Made by a program: the position numbers and the translations under genes. From contig NZ_CP094264.1 of assembly GCF_023614235.1 (NCBI RefSeq), positions 3,348,001 to 3,412,000 on the forward strand: a stretch of 64,000 nucleotides of DNA, in the 5' to 3' direction. A model generated the notes under the pieces. That model was given only the letters and a program-made list of their open reading frames with translations. It was not told where the DNA came from and did no database searches. Source of the stretch: Streptomyces sp. MRC013 (GTDB lineage Bacteria; Actinomycetota; Actinomycetes; Streptomycetales; Streptomycetaceae). Shown in pieces: positions 31,500 to 40,227 of this stretch; positions within the stretch are counted from its first letter, which is position 1, and each line of letters opens with the position of its first letter.

Positions 31500-31617
31500 C
31501 CGCTCGCTGCAACTGCGGGCCCTGGCCGCCTACCGCGACCGCCAGGACTGCGGCGAAGACGTCGGCTTCCCGCACGACGAGGCGTACCGGCGCGTCTTCG
31601 GCGGGGGCGACGCGTGA
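31500..31617 (+). pseudogene. Truncated antitoxin tail upstream of a decayed RelE
   Basis: One plus frame reads RSLQLRALAAYRDRQDCGED and on to HDEAYRRVFGGGDA, ending in TGA 31615-31617, which overlaps the GTG of the decayed toxin (31614). This is the normal antitoxin-toxin spacing and the composition fits a RelB/Phd-like C-terminus. No start or DNA-binding N-terminal part is visible. Confidence 0.45.
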
Positions 31618-31985
31618 CGTCCGAGGTCGTCTGAGAGCCCGAAGCTTTCGCCCGGGCGGAACGGCTTGCCAAGGACGACCCCGCCGGGGTCCGTCAGGTG
31701 TGCACCGCCGTCGACCGCCTCGCCGACAACCCCCGGCCTGACGGCGCCCCCGCAGCCGGTGACGTGCTGCGCGCCCACGTTGGCCGGTGTTGGGTCATGG
31801 TCAGTGACCGGCACATCCGGGACAACGTCATCCACCTCGGCCGCGTGAAGACCCGGCGGCCCGGTGGGAAGCGGACGCCCCCGGCGCCCGCCCCGGCGCC
31901 GGGGGCCTTGCGGACCGCGGGGCGGCGGCTGGCGATGCCTTCCGTGCCAGGGAGTGCGGGCTGGTGAGGAAGCCGTACCCCACGA
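31614..31985 (+). repeat. Left direct repeat: decayed relE copy plus glycosyltransferase 3' fragment
   Basis: This segment is homologous to 37087-37606. It begins with a RelE-type toxin reading VTSEVV, then TGA where the right copy has TGG, then EPEAFARAERLAKDDPAGVR and later DRHIRDNVIHLGRV, with two codons missing inside and no stop of its own. It continues with the terminator palindrome (31877-31906) and an antisense 3' piece of the GT2 glycosyltransferase gene (about 31909-31985, GTGAGGAAGCCGTACCCC). About 109 bp between two CTCGGCCGCGTG words in the right copy are deleted here. The segment marks the left border of the encapsulin island. Confidence 0.8.
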
Positions 31986-32089: not shown

Positions 32090-32441
32090 GACGCCGTCTC
32101 AGTCCCGTGTGCTGCTGCCTACGAGGCGGCCCGCATCACCGGTCTTGTCGTGTTCCTCGTATTGAATGTTTTTCATACTTATCAGGCCGATTGCTTCCGG
32201 CCGATTGTGCAGTCAAAAAATTGCTGTCTGAGGTGACGCTTTTCGTTTTTGAGCACTGCCATATCGGCAGGTCTTTGGGTACGGGTGAGCTTCAAGGACC
32301 GGTGGGCCGCGGGGAGGCATGGGCCGGTGCCCCGTTCGAAGAATTCAGGACTTTCGCTCACACGTTCCTGGTTGTGTGCGGGTGATCACACCGGTGATTG
32401 TGGCGGTGCACGGATCGCCACAGTCCGCCCGGGAGGTCACG
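32090..32441 (+). promoter_or_regulatory. Encapsulin operon leader with palindromes
   Basis: This 352-bp stretch holds no supportable gene. Its AT-rich core (32150-32260, with CATACTTATC and a run of six A) contrasts with the surroundings and probably carries the promoter. CTGCC-ATATC-GGCAG at 32256-32270 is a small hairpin. GTGTGCGGGTGATCACAC at 32374-32391 has 5-bp inverted ends and resembles the Streptomyces Crp site GTG-N6-GNCAC. It lies 50 bp before the shell gene. The ribosome binding site is GGGAGG at 32430-32435. Confidence 0.45.
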
Positions 32442-33827
32442 ATGAACGACTACCAGCAGAGCCTCAGCCCCGATGCCGCACGGCAGTTGGCCAATACCAC
32501 CAAAACCCGGCCGCAGATGCGGGCGATCACCCCCCGTTATCTGCTGCGTGCGCTGCCGTGGGTGGACGTCGAGTCCGGTGTCTACCGTGTCAACCGCCGC
32601 CGTACCTTCCTCCTGGGTGACGACCGCATCAGCAGCTACAACGACAACGGCGCCCATCGCGTCATCGCCGAGGACCTGCGCGAGCTGCCCTACCTACGGG
32701 AAGCCGATTCGGCCCTGCTCACCGAACTGGCCGGTTCGTTCACCACCGTCACCTTCGAGGCGGGGCAGGTCCTGGCCACGGAGGACGAGCCCTGCGGGCA
32801 GCTGTGGGTGCTGGTGCACGGCAAGGCAGAGAAGCGGGTCACGGGCCGCTACGGCGACGAAGCCGTCCTTGAGGTCATCGGTGACGGCCAGTTCTTCGAC
32901 CTCGCATCCTGGACCAGCGGCGCGCCCATGCCCCACTACGTCAAGGCGCTGACCCACGGTGTGGCACTGTGCCTGAACCGCGACGAGCTGACCCGACTGG
33001 CTGACGGCGACGAGCAGCTGCGAGTAGCGCTGGAGGCCTACACCGCGGACGGCGCACCCGAGCCCGGCTCCGAGGTGCCGGTGGAACTGGCCTCGGGCCA
33101 CGTGGGTGAGCCCGACCTGCCGGGAACGTACGTCGAGTACGAGGACACTCCGCGCGAGTACCACATGAGCCTGGCCCAGACCGTGCTGCGCGTGCACAGC
33201 CGCGTCGCCGACCTCTACAACGAGCCCATGGACCAGACCCGGTCCCAAGCCGACCTGACCATCCAGGCCCTGCGCGAGCGCCAGGAAGCGATGATGCTCA
33301 ACCACCCGGAGTACGGCTTGTTCCACAATGTCGCTCCCGGGCAGCGCGTGCAGACGCGTACCGGCGCACCCACCCCGGACGACTTGGACGAGCTGCTGAC
33401 CAGGGTGTGGAAGCACCCGGCGTACTTCCTCGCCCACCCCCGGGCGATTGCCGCCTTCGCGCGGGAATGTACCCGCCGGGGAGTGCCCCCGCTGATGGAC
33501 ACCCGCTTCGGCAGCCCGTTGCTGACCTGGCGAGGTGTGCCGATGCTGCCCTCGGACAAGGTGCGTTTCTCGGGCCGGGCCGGCACAGGCACCACCGAAA
33601 TCCTGCTGATGCGGGTGGGAGAGGCTGAGCAGGGCGTGGTGGGCCTGCGCCCGTCGAAGGTGACCGACGAGGTGGAACCGGGCCTGTCCATGCGGAACAT
33701 GGGCATGGACCAGAAGGGCATCAGCTCGTACCTGATGACGGCCTACTTCAACGCCGCGGTCCTGGTGGAGGACGCCACCGCCGTACTGCAGAACGTTGAG
33801 GTGTCCAAGTACCATGACTACTCCTGA
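32442..33827 (+). CDS. Family 2B encapsulin shell protein (EshA-like) with inserted cNMP-binding-type domain
   Basis: A 461-residue HK97-fold nanocompartment shell protein. Residues 1-54 are the arm typical of family 2 encapsulins (ARQLANTTKTRPQMRAITPR, ALPWVDVESGVYRVNR). Residues about 85-205 form an inserted cyclic-nucleotide-binding-type domain (TFEAGQVLATEDEPCGQLWV, GDGQFFDLASW). The shell fold resumes at LPGTYVEYEDTPREYHMSLA and runs through NHPEYGLFHNV, GAPTPDDLDELLTRVWKHPA, ITWRG-like LTWRGVPMLPSDKV and SMRNMGMDQKGISSYLMTAY to the end. The cyanobacterial SrpI shell of about 310 residues lacks the insert; Streptomyces EshA (about 52 kDa) has it. ATG 32442 follows GGGAGG. The gene overlaps its cargo gene by 14 bp. 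Shell identity is strong; ligand binding is uncertain. Confidence 0.93.
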   Translation: MNDYQQSLSPDAARQLANTTKTRPQMRAITPRYLLRALPWVDVESGVYRVNRRRTFLLGDDRISSYNDNGAHRVIAEDLRELPYLREADSALLTELAGSFTTVTFEAGQVLATEDEPCGQLWVLVHGKAEKRVTGRYGDEAVLEVIGDGQFFDLASWTSGAPMPHYVKALTHGVALCLNRDELTRLADGDEQLRVALEAYTADGAPEPGSEVPVELASGHVGEPDLPGTYVEYEDTPREYHMSLAQTVLRVHSRVADLYNEPMDQTRSQADLTIQALRERQEAMMLNHPEYGLFHNVAPGQRVQTRTGAPTPDDLDELLTRVWKHPAYFLAHPRAIAAFARECTRRGVPPLMDTRFGSPLLTWRGVPMLPSDKVRFSGRAGTGTTEILLMRVGEAEQGVVGLRPSKVTDEVEPGLSMRNMGMDQKGISSYLMTAYFNAAVLVEDATAVLQNVEVSKYHDYS

Positions 33828-35451
33828 GTCCAGGGGCCGCAAAGCCCCCGGAACCCTCCGAGCGCCCACGGTTCCCGCGGCCTCGGCCAAGCATCCGGTT
33901 CGGCCCCGCCCCACGGAACAGGCCGCCACCCCCGGGCTAACGACAGTCGATCCCACGGCTGCGACAGCGCCCGCCGTACTTGCGCAGCAGGCAGTTTCAG
34001 CGGCCCCGGCCGCCCGGCCCGGCCCGGCCATGCCGGAAGACCACCGCCTGCCGACTGCTCCCGCACGGCAGATCACCGTGCCCGATCACACGGCACACAC
34101 CGTCCAGGCTCCCCCCGTACAGACAGCTCCGCCCCCACCCGGCGCACATGCCGCCCCGGCCGCTACGGCAGTTCAGGCGCCTTCGTCCCACGCCTGGGCA
34201 GAACAAACGTACGCAGCCCCTAGCCAGCACGGCGTCTTCTCCCCGGACATGGCGCGCCGAGACATCCCCGTCCTGCAGCGTACGGTCAACGGCCGCCCCC
34301 TTGTCTGGCTGGACAACGGCGCCACCACACAAAAACCGCGCCAGGTCATCGAGGCTCTGAGCGCCTACTACGCCAGCGCCAACTCCAACATTCACCGCGG
34401 TGCGCACACCATGGCCCGGGAAGCCACCGACATCTACGAGGAGGGCCGCGCCGCGGTCGCCGGCCTGCTCGGCGCGCCTACACCGGACAGCGTCGTCTTC
34501 GTCCGCGGCACCACCGAAGCGATCAACCTCGTCGCACAGAGCTGGGGTCGCGACAACCTCGGCCCCGGCGATGAGATTCTCGTCTCGACGATGGAGCACC
34601 ACTCCAACATCGTTCCCTGGCAGCACATCGCCAAGGAACGGCAAGCCCGGGTGGTGCCCATTCCGCTCCTGCCGGACGGGCAGATCGACCAGAACGCCTA
34701 CGCCGACCTTCTCTCTTTCCGCACCCAGCTCGTCGCGCTGAGCCACGCCTCGAACGTCCTGGGCACCGTGCCCCCCGTTCGGGAGATGACGGCACTGGCC
34801 CACCGCTACGGGGCCAAAGTCCTGGTGGACGGTGCCCAGGCCATCGCCCACTTCCCGGTGGACGTCCAAGACCTCGACGCCGACTTCTACACCTTCTCCG
34901 GGCACAAGGTGTTCGCCCCCACCGGGATCGGGGCGCTGTACGCCAAGCCGGAAATCCTGCAGGGCATGCGACCATGGCAGGGCGGCGGCAACATGATCGA
35001 ATCGGTGGACTTCGGGCGGACCACCTACGCGCCCGTCCCGCACCGTTTCGAAGCCGGCACCGGCCACATCGCCGGAGTCGTCGGACTGCTGGCAGCCCTG
35101 AACTGGCTGACCTCCTTCGACCGGGAAGCCGTGGCCACATACGAGGCAAATCTGATCACTTACGCACAGCAGGCTCTCACCACCCTCCCGGGCATGGAGA
35201 TCCTCGGCTCGGCGCCCGGCAGGGTCGCCGTCCTGACCTTCACACTCACCGGGCACGAGCCGGCGGAGATCGCCGACTGGCTCGACCGGGAGGGAATCGC
35301 CATCCGGGCAGGCCACCACTGCGCCCAGCCAGCGCTGCGCCACTACGGCCTGGAAGACGCGGCACGGGCCTCGCTCGCCCTGTACAACACCTCACAGGAG
35401 GTGGACCAGTTGGTCCACTCGCTGCGGCAATTGCAGCAGTCCACCGCCTGA
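33814..35451 (+). CDS. Encapsulated SufS-type cysteine desulfurase with disordered N-terminal extension
   Basis: A 545-residue PLP enzyme of the SufS/CsdA class. The core starts near residue 145 (SPDMARRDIPVLQRTVNG, then VWLDNGATTQKPRQVIEALS). It has EHHSNIVPW (261-269), the PLP-pocket VDGAQ (338-342), the Schiff-base K365 in FSGHKVFAPTGIGALY and the persulfide cysteine C503 in IRAGHHCAQPALRHYG. It would release sulfur from L-cysteine as a persulfide. Residues 1 to about 140 are an Ala/Pro/Thr-rich, disordered extension absent from housekeeping SufS, as in cargo proteins of family 2 encapsulins. ATG 33814 lies inside the shell gene, so translation is coupled. The stop is followed by a hairpin. 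Sulfur acceptors are not encoded nearby. Confidence 0.93.
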   Translation: MTTPESRGRKAPGTLRAPTVPAASAKHPVRPRPTEQAATPGLTTVDPTAATAPAVLAQQAVSAAPAARPGPAMPEDHRLPTAPARQITVPDHTAHTVQAPPVQTAPPPPGAHAAPAATAVQAPSSHAWAEQTYAAPSQHGVFSPDMARRDIPVLQRTVNGRPLVWLDNGATTQKPRQVIEALSAYYASANSNIHRGAHTMAREATDIYEEGRAAVAGLLGAPTPDSVVFVRGTTEAINLVAQSWGRDNLGPGDEILVSTMEHHSNIVPWQHIAKERQARVVPIPLLPDGQIDQNAYADLLSFRTQLVALSHASNVLGTVPPVREMTALAHRYGAKVLVDGAQAIAHFPVDVQDLDADFYTFSGHKVFAPTGIGALYAKPEILQGMRPWQGGGNMIESVDFGRTTYAPVPHRFEAGTGHIAGVVGLLAALNWLTSFDREAVATYEANLITYAQQALTTLPGMEILGSAPGRVAVLTFTLTGHEPAEIADWLDREGIAIRAGHHCAQPALRHYGLEDAARASLALYNTSQEVDQLVHSLRQLQQSTA

Positions 35452-35454
35452 ACC

Positions 35455-35481
35455 ACTGTGGCGCAGTGCCAGCGCCACAGT
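35455..35481 (+). terminator. Terminator of the encapsulin operon
   Basis: ACTGTGGCGC (35455-35464) and GCGCCACAGT (35472-35481) are exact reverse complements around a 7-nt loop, 3 bp after the cysteine desulfurase stop. It closes the two-gene shell-cargo unit. Confidence 0.8.
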
Positions 35482-36060
35482 AACCACTGCGGCCACCCGA
35501 CTGAGTGATCACCGGGTGGCCGCCCCCTCTGCCCCATCACCACCGCTGACAAGTCCCACTGGCAATGCCTCGGCGGCTCGAAACGCCGCGGACGGTGACC
35601 GTCCTGCGCGCTCTGGCTCGTCGCCGGTCGCATGAGTGCGGCTGCCAAGCCGGCCGTGGATGAGAAAAGGGAGCCCCGCCATCCGGTGACAGGACAGCAT
35701 TCCAAGCTGCCGCTGTCGGTTCACCACCGCGGGCCGCCCGAAAAATGGCCTGGCTCGTGAGCTGTCGAGTTGGAGCCCGATGCACGGCAGCAACCCGGCG
35801 TCGTTGTCGCGGAGGACGAGCTGGTCGATGGCGTCGATGAGACCGGCTCGTGGCCGGTCGGCCTACCCGAAGCCGTCCCAAGCCCTGACAAGGCAACAAC
35901 GCCGTGCCGGGCCGACCCGCCCCTTCGCCTTGAAGGTGGACCGCGGCCGAGTTCCCGCCCGAGCCGGGGATGCGGACCTGTACGCATCCCCATGGTGGCT
36001 GTGCCCGCGGGTCTGTCGAACGAACGGTGTATCTGCGGGCGGCCTGACGACTGATCCCCG
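35482..36060. other. Gene-free stretch behind the encapsulin operon
   Basis: Open frames on both strands are short and lack a recognisable domain, ribosome binding site or steady codon bias. One minus-strand segment (LPCIGLQLDSSRARPFFGRP) and one plus-strand segment (RQQPGVVVAEDELVDGVDET) look protein-like for 20-30 residues and may be fragments of lost genes. I find no inverted-repeat ends. Confidence 0.4.
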
Positions 36061-36219: not shown

Positions 36220-36900
36220 TTGGAAGGCTGTCAGCATCGGGAGGGAGGACAGGTGTTCTTCGGGGATGGAGAAGCCCTCCGTCATCGTGGGCAGGAGGGG
36301 AGGGCGAGGCGGGCGGTCAGAGCGTGGTGTGTGCGGGGCAGTGAGCGGACGTGCTCGCGGCTCAGGACGCGCTCGGCCAGGAGCAGGCCGCTGCGGGAGT
36401 GCACCTGGTTCAGCAGGAACAGGACATGCAGGTCGTCTAGGACTGCCCGGGTGCCGGGGTCGGTGACTCGGGCGAGGGCTGCGGCGAAGGCATCGGCAGC
36501 CTGGCCGACGGTGTGGGCCTCGGCGAGGTTCAGGGCGGCGGCAGAGGCGTTGTTCCAGCGCCCGAGTGCGTCACCTGCTTCACCCCCTCGCAGGTCACGC
36601 CGTGCGGTGTCGTGCCAGTGATGCTCGGTGGCGGTGATGCAGAGGCGAAGGAAGTCGGGGTCTGTCAGGCTTTCTCGGCCGGTCGCCTGCCGGGGTGCGG
36701 GGCGAGCGGGTGACCGAAGACCATCTCGGCGGCGGCCTTGCACCAGATCGCGATGTTGTCTCCTTCCGCGGTGATCGCCCCGTCCGCGTTGGCGGGGTAC
36801 TCAGCCAGTCCGTTGACCGGGACCAGGGCGCGGGCGCCGCAGCGTTCCCGGCTCTCGATCGTGATCTCCCGTGCTTGCCAGGTGATCCAGCCTTTGGCGA
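36220..36900 (-). pseudogene. Acyl-CoA oxidase C-terminal remnant
   Basis: On the minus strand from about 36900 the sequence reads LAKGWITWQAREITIESRER, NGLAEYPANADGAITAEGDN and IAIWCKAAAEMVFGHPLAPH, then hits TGA at 36665-36667. The reading continues in another frame with SLTDPDFLRLCITATEHHWH, NNASAAALNLAEAHTVGQAA and VHSRSGLLLAERVLSREHV, then shifts again near 36290 to MTEGFSIPEEHLSSLPML. These match the FAD-domain end (ITAEGDN) and C-terminal helical domain of actinobacterial acyl-CoA oxidases. The N-terminal two thirds are gone and at least two frameshifts are present, so it is dead. Confidence 0.7.
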
Positions 36901-37086
36901 GGGCCCAGCACCGACATCAGCCCGCGGCGCGCGGATGGGTACCTCCCTTCCTACGTCGCGGACACGTTCATGAAGCGCACGTTCCTGCACGCCGGGAACA
37001 CCGCGCTGCTCGTCTGGTGGCCGCGCTGCGCACTGGGGCCCGAAGCCAGTCCCTGGCAGAGGGGTGCTCCTAGGCGAGAACGACGC

Positions 37087-37332
37087 TTGACGTGCGAGGT
37101 CATCTGGGAGCCCGAGGCCCTCGCCCAGGCGGAACGGCTCGCCAAGGACGACCCCGCCACGGTCCGTCAGGTGTGCACCGCCGTCGACCGCCTCGCCGAC
37201 GACCCCCGGCCTGACGGCGCCTTCGGAGCCGGCGACGTGCTGCGCGTCCACGTCCGTCCGTACCGGGTCGTGTACGAGGACAGCGACCGGCACATCCGCG
37301 TCAACGTCATCCACCTCGGCCGCGTGCGGTGA
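37087..37332 (+). CDS. RelE/ParE-family toxin, apparently without its antitoxin
   Basis: An 81-residue RelE-superfamily protein: CEVIWEPEALAQAERLAKDD at the start, TAVDRLADDPRPDGAFGAGD in the middle, then LRVHVRPYRVVYEDSDRHIR and VNVIHLGRVR at the end. The YRVVYE and HIGRR-like HLGRVR elements are typical of RelE ribosome-dependent nucleases or ParE relatives. The start is TTG 37087, overlapping a TGA that ends GENDA, the last residues of what was an antitoxin. No antitoxin body precedes it. A decayed second copy lies at 31614. Toxicity is unproven. Confidence 0.75.
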   Translation: MTCEVIWEPEALAQAERLAKDDPATVRQVCTAVDRLADDPRPDGAFGAGDVLRVHVRPYRVVYEDSDRHIRVNVIHLGRVR

Positions 37333-37462
37333 CAGCCGAGGCAGCCTGAAGCCGGGTGGCCTCGCGGTTCCGCGAAAGTCACCGGTGCTTGTCCGGCGTT
37401 CGCCCTGTCGCCCGGGGCGACGGCTCGGCCGCGTGAGGACCTGGCGGCCCGGTGGGAAGCGG

Positions 37463-37496
37463 AGGCCCCCGGCGCCGGGGCGGGCGCCGGGGGCCT
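37463..37496 (-). terminator. Terminator hairpin after the glycosyltransferase gene
   Basis: AGGCCCCCGGCGCC (37463-37476) and GGCGCCGGGGGCCT (37483-37496) are exact reverse complements with a 6-nt loop, 18 bp beyond the glycosyltransferase stop. The same hairpin, slightly shortened, is copied in the left direct repeat at 31877-31906. Confidence 0.75.
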
Positions 37497-37514
37497 TGCG
37501 TACCGGAGCGGGGG

Positions 37515-38525
37515 TCAGGCCGCCGTGCGGACCGCGGGGCGGCGGCTGGCGATGACCTTCCTCGCGAGGCTGCGCGGGCTGGTGAGGAAGCCGTACCCCC
37601 ACGACATGTGCATCGTCGCCAGCGCCACCGGGACCTGCAGCCGGGCCTTGGGCGAGAGTCCCCGGCCCGCCGGGACGGAGCCCAGGACGATCGCCGCGAG
37701 GTAGCCGCCCGGGACGGCGAAGCCCAGCGGGGTGAGGGTCGCGCCCACGACGAGGCCGGCCGCGATGGCGCAGACGGCCGCCGGCGGGGCCAGGTAGCGC
37801 AGGTTGATGGAGCCCCGGTGGTAGCGGGCCACCACGTGGCGCCAGCGGCCGTAGTCCTTGTACTGCTTCGCCAGCGCCCGCACCGACGGCCGCGGCCGGT
37901 AGCGCACCTTCAGCTCCGGCGAGAACCAGATCAGCCCGCCCGCCTCGCGGATGCGGAAGTTCAGCTCCCAGTCCTGGGCGCGGACGAACTCCTCGTTGTA
38001 GCCGCCCTGCCGCTCCAGCGCCTCGCGCCGGAACACGCCCAGGTAGACCGTCTCCGCCGGGCCGGCCTCGCCGCCCGTGTGGAACGCGGCGTTGCCCACG
38101 CCGATGCGGGAGGTCATCGCGGCGGCGACGGCCTCCTCCCAGGCGTTCTCGCCCTCGGCGTGCATGATGCCGCCGACGTTCTGCGCGCCGGTCTCCTCCA
38201 GCAGCCGCACCGCCGTCGCGATGTAGTTCGGCGACAGCATGCCGTGCCCGTCGACGCGTACCACGACCGGGTGGCGCGACGCCCTGATCGCCGCGTTCAG
38301 CGCGGCGGGCGTACGGCCCGTCGGGTTGGGCACGGTGTGCACGCGCGGGTCCTCGCGGACCAGCTCGGCGGCGATCTCGTCGGTCCGGTCGGTGGACGGG
38401 CCGAGCGCGATCACCACCTCCATCTCGCCGTCGTACTCCTGGTCGAGGATGTGGCGGACCGCGTCGCGCAGGTACCGCTCCTCGTTGAGGACCGGCATGA
38501 TCACGGAGACCGGGGGCAGGGGCAT
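37515..38525 (-). CDS. GT2-family glycosyltransferase with membrane tail
   Basis: A 336-residue GT-A fold glycosyltransferase. The nucleotide-sugar site begins with VSVIMPVLNEERYLRDAVRH. The metal-binding DxD-like element is VVRVDGHGMLSPNYIATAVR, and the acceptor-side motif is EFVRAQDWELNFRIREAGG. A YRPRPSVRALAKQYKDYGRW segment and three or four hydrophobic segments (about residues 240-310) anchor it at the membrane. ATG 38525 follows TCCGAGGAACC. Its 3' end and terminator are partly duplicated at 31.9 kb. Neighbouring LCP genes suggest work on a wall-linked glycopolymer. Confidence 0.9.
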   Translation of the reverse strand: MPLPPVSVIMPVLNEERYLRDAVRHILDQEYDGEMEVVIALGPSTDRTDEIAAELVREDPRVHTVPNPTGRTPAALNAAIRASRHPVVVRVDGHGMLSPNYIATAVRLLEETGAQNVGGIMHAEGENAWEEAVAAAMTSRIGVGNAAFHTGGEAGPAETVYLGVFRREALERQGGYNEEFVRAQDWELNFRIREAGGLIWFSPELKVRYRPRPSVRALAKQYKDYGRWRHVVARYHRGSINLRYLAPPAAVCAIAAGLVVGATLTPLGFAVPGGYLAAIVLGSVPAGRGLSPKARLQVPVALATMHMSWGYGFLTSPRSLARKVIASRRPAVRTAA

Positions 38526-38730
38526 GGTTCCTCGGAGGTGCGAAGGACGTCCCGGGGCGGCGACGGCCCCGGGGCGCGGGGGTCGGCCCGGGCGGGCGGA
38601 CAGCGGTGACGCCCGCCACGTTACCGCGAACGGGGGACGCCGGTGTGCGCCGCCCGGGGTGGTGCGGCCGGCCGCCGATCGTACGGGCCTACCGTGGCGG
38701 TTCCCCCACCCGCCCGCGGAGGTGTCCTTC

Positions 38731-40227
38731 GTGCCCGTGCCGCCCCGCCCCGCCCGCCCGGTCCCCGGCCCGCCGGTCCGCGGTGCGGGACGCCCGGCGG
38801 CGCCCCGGGCGGCACGGCCGCCGCGCCGGTGGTGGGTCCGGTGGGGGGCGGGGCTGGCGACGACCCTGTCGGTCCTGGTCCTCGTGGTCGGCGGCGTCGG
38901 CCACGCCGTCGTCACCACCCTCGACACGGGGATCGGCCGGGTCGAGGCGTTCGCGGACACGAAGAACCGCCCGGCGGCCGGCCGCGGCACCAACGTCCTG
39001 CTCGTCGGCACGGACGGCCGCGACCGGGTCACCCCCGCGGAGAAGGCCCGGTACCGGCTCGGCGGCGCCCCCTGCAACTGCACGGACACGGTCATGCTGG
39101 CCCACGTCTCGGAGGACCGCCGGCGCGTCAGCGTGGTCTCCCTGCCCCGCGACTCCTACGTCGAGCTGCCCGGACACGCGGACCCGGCCACCGGGGAGCG
39201 CCGCGGCGCCCGCCCGGTCAAGCTGAACGCCGTCCACGCCGAGGGCGGGCCGGGCCTGCTGGTCCGGACCGTCGAGCGGATGACCGGGGTGAAGGTCGAC
39301 CACTACCTGGAGGTCGACTTCACCGGCTTCATGAGCGCCGTCGACGCCCTCGGAGGGGTCCGGATCTGCACCGCCCGCCCCATGAGGGACCCGTACACCG
39401 GCCTCGACCTGCCCGCCGGGACCCACGTCCTCGACGGCGGCGGGGCCCTGCGGTACGTGCGGTCCCGCCACGTCGACGCCACCTCCGACCTGGGGCGGAT
39501 GCGGCGGCAGCAGCGGTTCGTCGCCGCGCTGATCGACCGGGCGACGGGCAGCGGCGTACTGCTCGACCCGCGGCGGTTCCGCGGCGTCCTGGAGGCGGCG
39601 GCCGGATCGGTCCGCGCGGACCGGGGGTTCGGCGCGGAGGAGGTGCTGGAGCTGGCCGGGGGGATGCGCGGCCTCACGGCGGCGTCGTCCGAATTCGCGT
39701 CCGTACCCGTCGAGGCGGAGGGCCCGCGCGTCGACGGGGTGGGGGCGACGGTGCGGTGGGACGCGGCGCGGGCGCGGAAGCTGTTCGCGTCGATCCGCGA
39801 GGACCGGCCCCTGCGCGCCCGCCCCGCCGGGCCGGCGACGCGCCGCGGGGCCGTCGCCGTACCGCCGGGGGACGTCCGCGTCCAGGTGTACAACGGCACC
39901 GGGATCCCGGGGCTGGCCGCCCGGATGGACGCCGGCCTGCGGGCGGCGGGCTTCGACACGACCCGCACCCCGTACGACGCCGGGCGGCGGGACGTCGCCC
40001 GGACCGTCGTCGCGTACGACCCGGTCTGGGACCGCTCGGCGGAGACCCTCGCGGCGGCGCTGCCCGGCGCCCGGCTGCTGGCCGTACCCGGCCAGGGGCC
40101 GTTGATGCGGGTCACGGCCGGGGCGGACCGCACGGCCGTGCGGCCGGTGCGCACCGGGGCCCCGACCCCCGCGCGGGGGTCCGCCGGGGACGAGGCGCTC
40201 ACCGGCGACCAGGTCGTCTGCCCCTGA
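38731..40227 (+). CDS. LCP-family glycopolymer ligase with LytR_C domain (1 of 5)
   Basis: A 498-residue LytR-CpsA-Psr protein. A Pro/Arg cytoplasmic tail precedes one TM helix (LATTLSVLVLVVGGVGHAVV). The LCP domain has NVLLVGTDGRDRVTP, TDTVMLAHVSEDRRRVSVVS followed by LPRDSYVELPG, then DHYLEVDFTGFMSAVDALGG and LRYVRSRHVDATSDLGRMRR. A LytR_C domain (VRVQVYNGTGIPGLAARMDA) follows. LCP enzymes transfer polyprenyl-diphosphate-linked glycopolymers onto peptidoglycan outside the membrane, using the arginines of the listed motifs. GTG 38731 is set by GGAGG nine bases upstream. It is the first of five LCP genes within 9 kb. Confidence 0.92.
   Translation: MPVPPRPARPVPGPPVRGAGRPAAPRAARPPRRWWVRWGAGLATTLSVLVLVVGGVGHAVVTTLDTGIGRVEAFADTKNRPAAGRGTNVLLVGTDGRDRVTPAEKARYRLGGAPCNCTDTVMLAHVSEDRRRVSVVSLPRDSYVELPGHADPATGERRGARPVKLNAVHAEGGPGLLVRTVERMTGVKVDHYLEVDFTGFMSAVDALGGVRICTARPMRDPYTGLDLPAGTHVLDGGGALRYVRSRHVDATSDLGRMRRQQRFVAALIDRATGSGVLLDPRRFRGVLEAAAGSVRADRGFGAEEVLELAGGMRGLTAASSEFASVPVEAEGPRVDGVGATVRWDAARARKLFASIREDRPLRARPAGPATRRGAVAVPPGDVRVQVYNGTGIPGLAARMDAGLRAAGFDTTRTPYDAGRRDVARTVVAYDPVWDRSAETLAAALPGARLLAVPGQGPLMRVTAGADRTAVRPVRTGAPTPARGSAGDEALTGDQVVCP

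Follow-up and report, generated by a model that had tools for sequence, protein, structure and literature searches.

A family 2B encapsulin operon of Streptomycetaceae whose cysteine desulfurase lacks the SrpI-type loading signals

Introduction

In the SrpI system, a described relative of the locus treated here, the N-terminal domain of the cysteine desulfurase CyD (225 amino acids, aa) is necessary and sufficient for loading into the family 2A encapsulin shell, and for a desulfurase without this domain loading was not measurable (Nichols et al. 2021, PMC8049743, available in part). Two motifs are typical of the CyD domain family, LARLANEFFS and AASPYYFLDG, the second of which is insufficient for loading on its own; in SrpI, weak cargo density is placed close to Phe262 and Tyr273, at the three-fold axis (available part of PMC8049743). 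A survey of encapsulins, likewise available in part, counts 199 desulfurase operons with family 2B shells, distributed over 9 phyla, versus 1281 with family 2A shells, describes the desulfurase N-terminal domain as mediating loading, and lists terpene, prenyl and xylulose-kinase types as cargo of 2B shells without desulfurase (Andreas and Giessen 2021, PMC8346489). The pairing of a 2B shell with a desulfurase is an already published operon type that is uncommon overall. Here we analyse such an operon in Streptomyces sp. MRC013, whose genome consists of a single contig of 5.33 Mb. The window, i.e. the whole 64-kb stretch of DNA under study, covers positions 3348001-3412000 of that contig, and coordinates refer to the window unless stated otherwise.

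The operon is a two-gene unit on the forward strand, in which a family 2B encapsulin shell gene (32442..33827, 461 aa) is followed by a gene for a SufS-type cysteine desulfurase (33814..35451, 545 aa). The branch to which it belongs may be among the 199 operons counted in the available part of PMC8346489. Judged by its sequences, the form found in Streptomycetaceae is a distinct variant of the known operon type, and it departs from the published loading model in the desulfurase as well as in the shell.

Loading signals of the desulfurase

The sample comprises 155 desulfurase-encapsulin loci, 135 of which are distinct (two Azospirillum shells among these are identical): 33 of family 2A, 37 other 2B operons, and 65 operons of the clade that contains the window. 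A comparison set consists of 95 2B shells without desulfurase (93 distinct). Ahead of the enzyme, the window's desulfurase carries an N-terminal extension of 140 aa (33814..34233, +) in which motif scans find neither of the SrpI loading motifs. The median length of the extension is 207 residues in family 2A (range 62-323), 236 in the other 2B operons (45-406) and 60 in the window clade (7-193), all lengths assuming a start codon at the gene overlap. Extensions of 20 residues or fewer occur in 11 of the 65 clade operons, one of them with 7 residues, versus none of the 70 operons outside the clade.

A motif resembling LARLANEFFS is present in 25 of 33 family 2A and 32 of 37 other 2B extensions, and in none of the 65 of the window clade; for AASPYYFLDG the corresponding counts are 22/33, 29/37 and 0/65. 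Shuffled extensions yield at most 0.8 expected matches per group for either motif. A looser amphipathic pattern gives the same picture (30/33, 34/37 and 1/65, with shuffle expectations of 6.9, 9.8 and 1.1). We note that the patterns (tight, wider and loosest) were defined after the sequences had been read. Ten operons outside the clade are likewise without both motifs, six of them family 2A, three 2B from Bacteroidota, and the one from Catenulispora. A short RYW stretch, perhaps a remnant of the second motif, is found in four of the 65 clade members (three Kitasatospora-like strains and Streptomyces clavuligerus) and in the Catenulispora member. The first residues of the desulfurase, MTTP(D/E), are dictated by the overlapping frame of the shell gene and are therefore uninformative with respect to loading.

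The clade tails are rich in Pro, Ala and Thr, with a composition near that of the 2A tails, except that Thr is more frequent and Phe, Tyr and Leu are less so. Several candidate substitutes for the missing signals were rejected. Among the crown tails long enough for the analysis (53 of 61), no shared word of 4 or 5 residues rises above the largest count of 20 shuffles (14 versus 14; 6 versus 6). The terpene-cyclase tag GPTGLGT(SAAR) is matched at p < 0.05 by three of 64 tails, with 3.2 expected and one tail too short. A C-terminal tag is not indicated either: 54 of the 56 complete clade proteins have no added tail, and two are about 25 residues longer. Changes clustered on the desulfurase surface might still provide the new contact: out of 109 conserved columns, the crown group is fixed for another residue at six, and three of these (203, 264 and 285) show the residue of the genome's ordinary SufS. 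In the literature, a search of titles and the beginnings of abstracts, with most subscription journals and all bioRxiv preprints outside its reach, returned no paper on a desulfurase encapsulin without a loading domain.

Some individual extensions deserve mention in their own right. That of locus L198 (genus Streptomyces) holds GPTALATSAA, near the tag GPTGLGTSAAR of geosmin-synthase-like cyclases given in the available part of PMC8346489; none of 300 shuffles reaches its score. Most of the readable Bacteroidota 2B desulfurase extensions (up to 346 aa) hold both motifs, and the three-fold site of the shell is Leu there. In five Bacteroidales 2B desulfurases (L085, L089, L097, L108 and L118) a conserved stretch FGIGIPET..V.NL.Y(E/D)E(A/V)D, possibly a different loading element, lies just before the enzyme.

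Shell residues at the three-fold axis and the pore

The second departure concerns the position that corresponds by alignment to SrpI Phe262, the three-fold residue near the cargo density, which in the window's shell is Asn419 (33696..33698, +). The equivalent residue is Phe in all 33 family 2A shells, and Phe (91) or Tyr (2) in the 93 distinct 2B shells without desulfurase. Other 2B desulfurase shells have Leu in 29 cases, Phe in 4, Tyr in 3 and His in 1 of 37, and the window clade has Asn in 60, Ala in 2, Pro in 2 and Asp in 1 of 65. As a control, 68 columns were considered at which 2A and non-desulfurase 2B shells agree to at least 90%; the clade is fixed otherwise at only four of them, namely 242 (Leu to Met), 417 (Val to Met), 419 (Phe to Asn) and 437 (Ser to Asn). 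Among the 135 operons, a hydrophobic three-fold residue goes along with at least one loading motif in 60 of 69 cases, and any other residue in none of 66.

The five-fold pore behaves differently. Pro349 (33486..33488, +), aligned with the pore residue Pro196 of SrpI, marks desulfurase shells: the proline is present in all 135 distinct ones, including 65 of 65 in the clade, and in none of the 93 distinct 2B shells without desulfurase (Tyr 64, Val 27, Leu 1, Asn 1). The equivalent of SrpI Tyr273 is also kept in 63 of the 65 clade shells.

The shell protein and its insert

The shell is assigned to family 2B by the NCBIfam model NF041163 (632.7 bits versus a cut-off of 400, residues 7-455). Its HK97-fold part spans residues 210-455 (33069..33806, +; PF19307, 358.6 bits), and an insert with a cyclic-nucleotide-binding fold spans residues 103-188 (32748..33005, +; PF00027, 53.4 bits). 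The protein thus combines two sequence features of the family, an HK97-type SrpI-like domain and a cyclic-nucleotide-binding-fold domain inserted between the N-arm and the C-terminal HK97 part. The best-scoring solved chains are 9bix, 9bhu and 9bje (420, 400 and 398 bits), to which the shell aligns over its whole length, insert included; their entries are labelled as Crp/Fnr-family or nucleotide-binding proteins, and we take them to be 2B encapsulins. No other shell in the host genome exceeds the family cut-off. A two-component 2B layout is not indicated, as no second shell was found near 72 clade loci, where the available stretches often reach only about 1.5 kb to each side. A further shell gene, split into two frames, was observed at locus L040 (G036:C2:829000-838500) in another genome of the genus Streptomyces.

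A gap of insert length is found in all 65 clade shells (the insert typing excluded six loci whose N-arm could not be read). With conservation values of 0.76 for the insert and 0.88 for the HK97 part, the insert is the less conserved of the two. A Glu and an Arg are the signature of the cyclic-nucleotide phosphate-binding cassette. In a gap-free comparison with the genome's own Crp-like protein, these positions correspond to Leu154 and Met163 of the window's shell, and none of the 65 clade shells has Glu at 154 or Arg at 163. Because both signature residues are gone in all of them, gating by a cyclic nucleotide is unlikely. The clade-specific stretch GDGQFFD..W of the insert is well conserved; therefore a different ligand is possible.

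The desulfurase

The desulfurase belongs to the SufS subfamily TIGR01979 (517 bits versus a cut-off of 475.1). Its best-scoring match is NF041166, the model for desulfurase cargo of the 2A type, with 643 bits, below the cut-off of 800. Lys365 (34906..34908, +), which we take to be the lysine that binds pyridoxal 5'-phosphate, lies in an SGHK motif found in 65 of 65 relatives. Cys503 (35320..35322, +), presumably the catalytic cysteine, lies in a GHHC motif found in 63 of 65; nine of the 65 are incomplete because the locus ends within the gene, and all 56 complete clade proteins have the motif. A separate SufS is encoded at 4319042-4320262 of the host contig, with a better score (615 versus 518 bits). 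Together with the placement of the enzyme in the desulfurase tree, in which the sampled encapsulin desulfurases cluster together against the host's ordinary SufS (modest support, 81/80), this rules out that the operon encodes the housekeeping SufS.

Operon structure and local DNA

The sequence-only reading of this DNA had proposed an insert-bearing family 2 shell paired with a desulfurase, a 14-bp overlap of the two genes and a perfect hairpin behind them, all of which hold: the domain models place shell (NF041163) and enzyme (TIGR01979) above their cut-offs, PF00027 matches the insert, the frames overlap by exactly 14 bp (33814..33827, +; ATGACTACTCCTGA), and fold analysis gives a perfect 10-bp stem after the operon (35455..35481, +). 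A GAGGTG inside the shell gene, 10 nt before the ATG of the desulfurase gene (33798..33803, +), reads as a possible ribosome-binding site. A second hairpin, missing from the sequence-only reading, has an outer stem of 11 bp (35489..35523, +). The region 35440-35545 folds with -46 kcal/mol (z = -4.8), and none of 200 shuffles is as good. A terminator scan called none at the hairpins, and the sequence has no T tract at either of them; a role as terminators is plausible at most.

The region upstream of the shell gene (32101..32441, +) is common to the window and Streptomyces candidus (78.6% identity over 346 alignment columns) and forms the left edge of a shared cassette. Within it, a small inverted repeat at about 32256-32270 reads CTGTCATATTGACAG in S. 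candidus (L041) and CTGCCATATCGGCAG in the window, so that pairing is kept through changes on both sides; in L199, the third of only three aligned sequences, it is unpaired. The 8-mer ACGATCGG occurs upstream of the shell gene in 34 of 65 clade members, with the best word in five crude shuffles reaching 17, and in several members it sits within the nearly palindromic GGACGATCGGTCC. The 8-mer may be an operator or a promoter element; visual inspection did not reveal it upstream of the window's shell gene.

Distribution of the gene pair

Among the 80 best shell relatives listed in a scan of GTDB genomes, at least 22 have a shell identity of 64-98%: 20 Streptomyces, one Kitasatospora and one Streptosporangium nondiastaticum. 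The nearest named relative at the locus among the matches listed is S. candidus, with 98% shell identity. A desulfurase gene lies directly downstream in 21 of the 22, and the contig of the last one stops 171 bases past the shell. In a separate draw of 392 genomes of the genus Streptomyces (shell counted at E <= 1e-160), 50 harbor the shell, 49 of them at 72-100% identity and one at 61%. The desulfurase follows in 48 of the 50, the remaining two contigs stopping 2 and 171 bases after the shell. Close homologues with another cargo, which would have spoken against the pairing, are thus absent from the readable loci of both sets. A family 2A shell is found above cut-off in only six of the 392 genomes, none of which is among the 50, and within the genus Streptomyces 2B rather than 2A is the usual desulfurase shell. 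The expectation that the pairing is less usual than that of a 2A shell with a desulfurase is hence right for the overall count of operons (available part of PMC8346489) and wrong for this genus.

An overlap offset of -14 is found in 64 of the 65 distinct clade operons; in the remaining one the count starts at an upstream ATG, and an in-frame ATG further on would by arithmetic also give -14. On a Kitasatospora plasmid, a 2B shell beside a SufS-family desulfurase is already annotated as such. In a draw of Bacteroidota (L233-L256), 26 of 198 genomes match at E <= 1e-100, only two of the 26 with 2A shells.

Phylogeny

Trees were computed on chosen subsets (75 shells and 42 desulfurases); in the desulfurase tree, the L174 paralogue, probably a wrong-frame protein (branch 5.9), was disregarded. 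The window clade is the sister of the 2B shells without desulfurase (99/89), and the other 2B desulfurase shells group with family 2A. The alternative topology, with all 2B desulfurase shells as one clade, is not rejected (AU test, p = 0.059). The window clade and Catenulispora together form one clade (99/96). The main splits of the shell tree recur in the desulfurase tree. Because the root is not known, the motifs may either have been lost in this branch or never gained.

Genomic surroundings

Within the flanks compared, homology to S. candidus spans only 32101-35556. The outer flanks of 24 related loci share little, the best-connected flank matching three others. Searches for homologues of serine acetyltransferase, cysteine synthase and rhodanese returned none at 29 clade loci (27 of them different, as L033/L046 and L034/L056 are second copies of the same contig; mean length 10.7 kb; tblastn, E 1e-6) and none in the whole window at E 1e-4. 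An accessory sulfur gene is present at 10 of 14 other 2B desulfurase loci and at 7 of 10 family 2A loci; the queries were drawn from four of these ten, without which the 2A count is 3 of 6. Since the flanks differ and an accessory cysteine gene is not found nearby, the operon looks, in its genomic setting, like a mobile cassette of two genes that brings no cysteine supply of its own.

A direct repeat flanks the operon (31595-31981 and 37068-37599, with blocks 85-97% identical) and could be a trace of the acquisition or duplication of the segment. The right copy includes a gene for a ParE-type toxin (36970-37332, PF05016), and a glycosyltransferase gene (37515-39095, -) reaches into it with its 3' end. 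The left copy is decayed, with 74% aa identity over 86 residues and a stop. Between operon and right copy, a short open reading frame (36282-36743, -) matches the C-terminal part of acyl-CoA oxidase (PF01756) and is perhaps a gene remnant.

Possible modes of loading

Our preferred interpretation, to which we assign a probability of about 60%, is a stand-alone sulfur compartment of a 2B shell and its own SufS-type desulfurase, in which loading relies neither on the SrpI-type N-terminal domain nor on the Phe262 site but on another contact. The shell would form a small icosahedral cage that displays the insert outside. Cysteine would enter through the proline-lined five-fold pore common to all sampled desulfurase shells, and the desulfurase would make persulfide or sulfane sulfur inside. 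The enzyme might be held via its own folded part, or be captured during coupled translation from the overlapping genes. Cage assembly, a luminal location, sulfur storage and the alternative contact are what we infer. Because the pore proline, the catalytic motifs, the -14 overlap and the matching trees are all kept, the two proteins appear to work together still, and the compartment to serve a cysteine-using enzyme. The desulfurase is probably still a cargo, and its loading through another contact is a proposal. The more specific proposal that the Streptomycetaceae lineage gave up an N-terminal loading domain, changed the hydrophobic three-fold residue, and now loads either via the fold of the enzyme or by capturing it while the coupled genes are translated is tentative, at somewhat less than even odds.

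Several observations weigh against this interpretation. Nine operons outside the clade have a hydrophobic three-fold residue and lack both motifs, and the residue alone is no strict key for motif presence; it is not decisive on its own, because Bacteroidota 2B shells carry Leu yet mostly keep the motifs. The absence of the motifs and the change at Phe262 both fall in one clade and therefore count as one linked history, not as repeated events. This branch may, moreover, never have had the motifs. For the three-fold docking site, the evidence is weak cryo-EM density from a single paper, and by analogy with the SrpI desulfurase, which is not measurably loaded without its N-terminal domain, the clade enzymes might stay outside (both from the available part of PMC8049743).

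The last point leads to the view that the desulfurase is no longer encapsulated: the operon would serve shared expression, with the enzyme cytosolic or docked outside and the cage empty or filled with cargo encoded elsewhere. The sequence-only reading had described the shell as loaded with the desulfurase, which goes further than the sequences show, as the SrpI-type N-terminal signals and the three-fold residue are both missing. The published motifs at 0 of 65, the altered three-fold residue, the absence of any extra C-terminal stretch from 54 of the 56 complete clade proteins and the failure of the truncated SrpI desulfurase to load measurably (PMC8049743, in its available part) all agree with an enzyme outside the shell. 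An enzyme that never enters the shell would hardly account for the strict pairing, the matching trees and the kept pore proline, and we regard this view as doubtful. Alternatively, the Pro/Ala/Thr-rich tail might itself load the enzyme by bulk composition, i.e. by weak, multivalent contacts instead of a motif. Most clade members keep a low-complexity tail (median 60 aa) whose composition is not far from 2A, and such domains are described as keeping their bulk chemistry while their sequence diverges (available part of PMC8049743); against this stand the 11 of 65 operons with 20 residues or fewer, one with 7, and the lack of any 4- or 5-residue word above shuffles in the 53 of 61 crown tails long enough, which make a loading tail of this kind quite improbable.

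A ligand-gated persulfide factory, in which a small molecule bound to the outer insert would switch the compartment between open and closed, is compatible with the other readings and had been suggested from the sequence at the outset. It draws on the insert-length gap in the 65 clade shells and on the clade-specific GDGQFFD..W stretch. For a cyclic nucleotide the suggestion fares badly, the Glu and Arg being missing in 65 of 65; the insert is also less conserved than the HK97 part, and one published 2B insert is said, with reference to another paper, not to bind cyclic nucleotides (available part of PMC12407261). We regard such a ligand-gated factory as unlikely. That a stray shell gene merely neighbours a housekeeping SufS finds nothing in its favour beyond the SufS-like score of the enzyme; with a separate SufS of 615 bits elsewhere in the genome, a pairing kept across the genus, which refutes it, and encapsulin desulfurases clustering apart (81/80), its probability is next to nil.

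If the more specific proposal for the Streptomycetaceae lineage holds, encapsulins would have a way of loading that needs neither a targeting peptide nor a targeting domain, located on the branch leading to the terpenoid shells. Encapsulin cargo is defined in part by its dedicated targeting sequences, and here a widespread, gene-coupled lineage lacks the published ones. Its natural series of tails from 7 to 193 residues is ready material on what loading needs, and on calling cargo from gene pairing alone.

Comparison with known systems

The SrpI-CyD system of Synechococcus elongatus (family 2A) and the window's operon both combine an HK97-fold shell with a SufS-type desulfurase. SrpI is without the insert that the window's shell has, and the 225-aa loading domain of CyD (PMC8049743, available in part) contrasts with an extension of 140 aa without motifs. 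The Synechococcus operon also holds cysK, epsC and a rhodanese gene, whereas no homologue of such genes was found at the 29 clade loci searched. Streptomyces EshA would be a further insert-bearing, 2B-like shell; the searches identified no record of it.

The 2B desulfurase operons of PMC8346489 have the same arrangement of an insert-bearing shell gene beside a SufS-type desulfurase gene. In the available part of that paper the N-terminal domain is treated as the loading element, whereas the clade described here has neither motif, with extensions down to 7 residues, as well as a changed three-fold residue and no sulfur accessory gene found nearby. The 2B shells without desulfurase share the shell architecture but have mostly Tyr or Val at the pore and Phe or Tyr at the three-fold site; the clade points to desulfurase shells that lie nearest to them.

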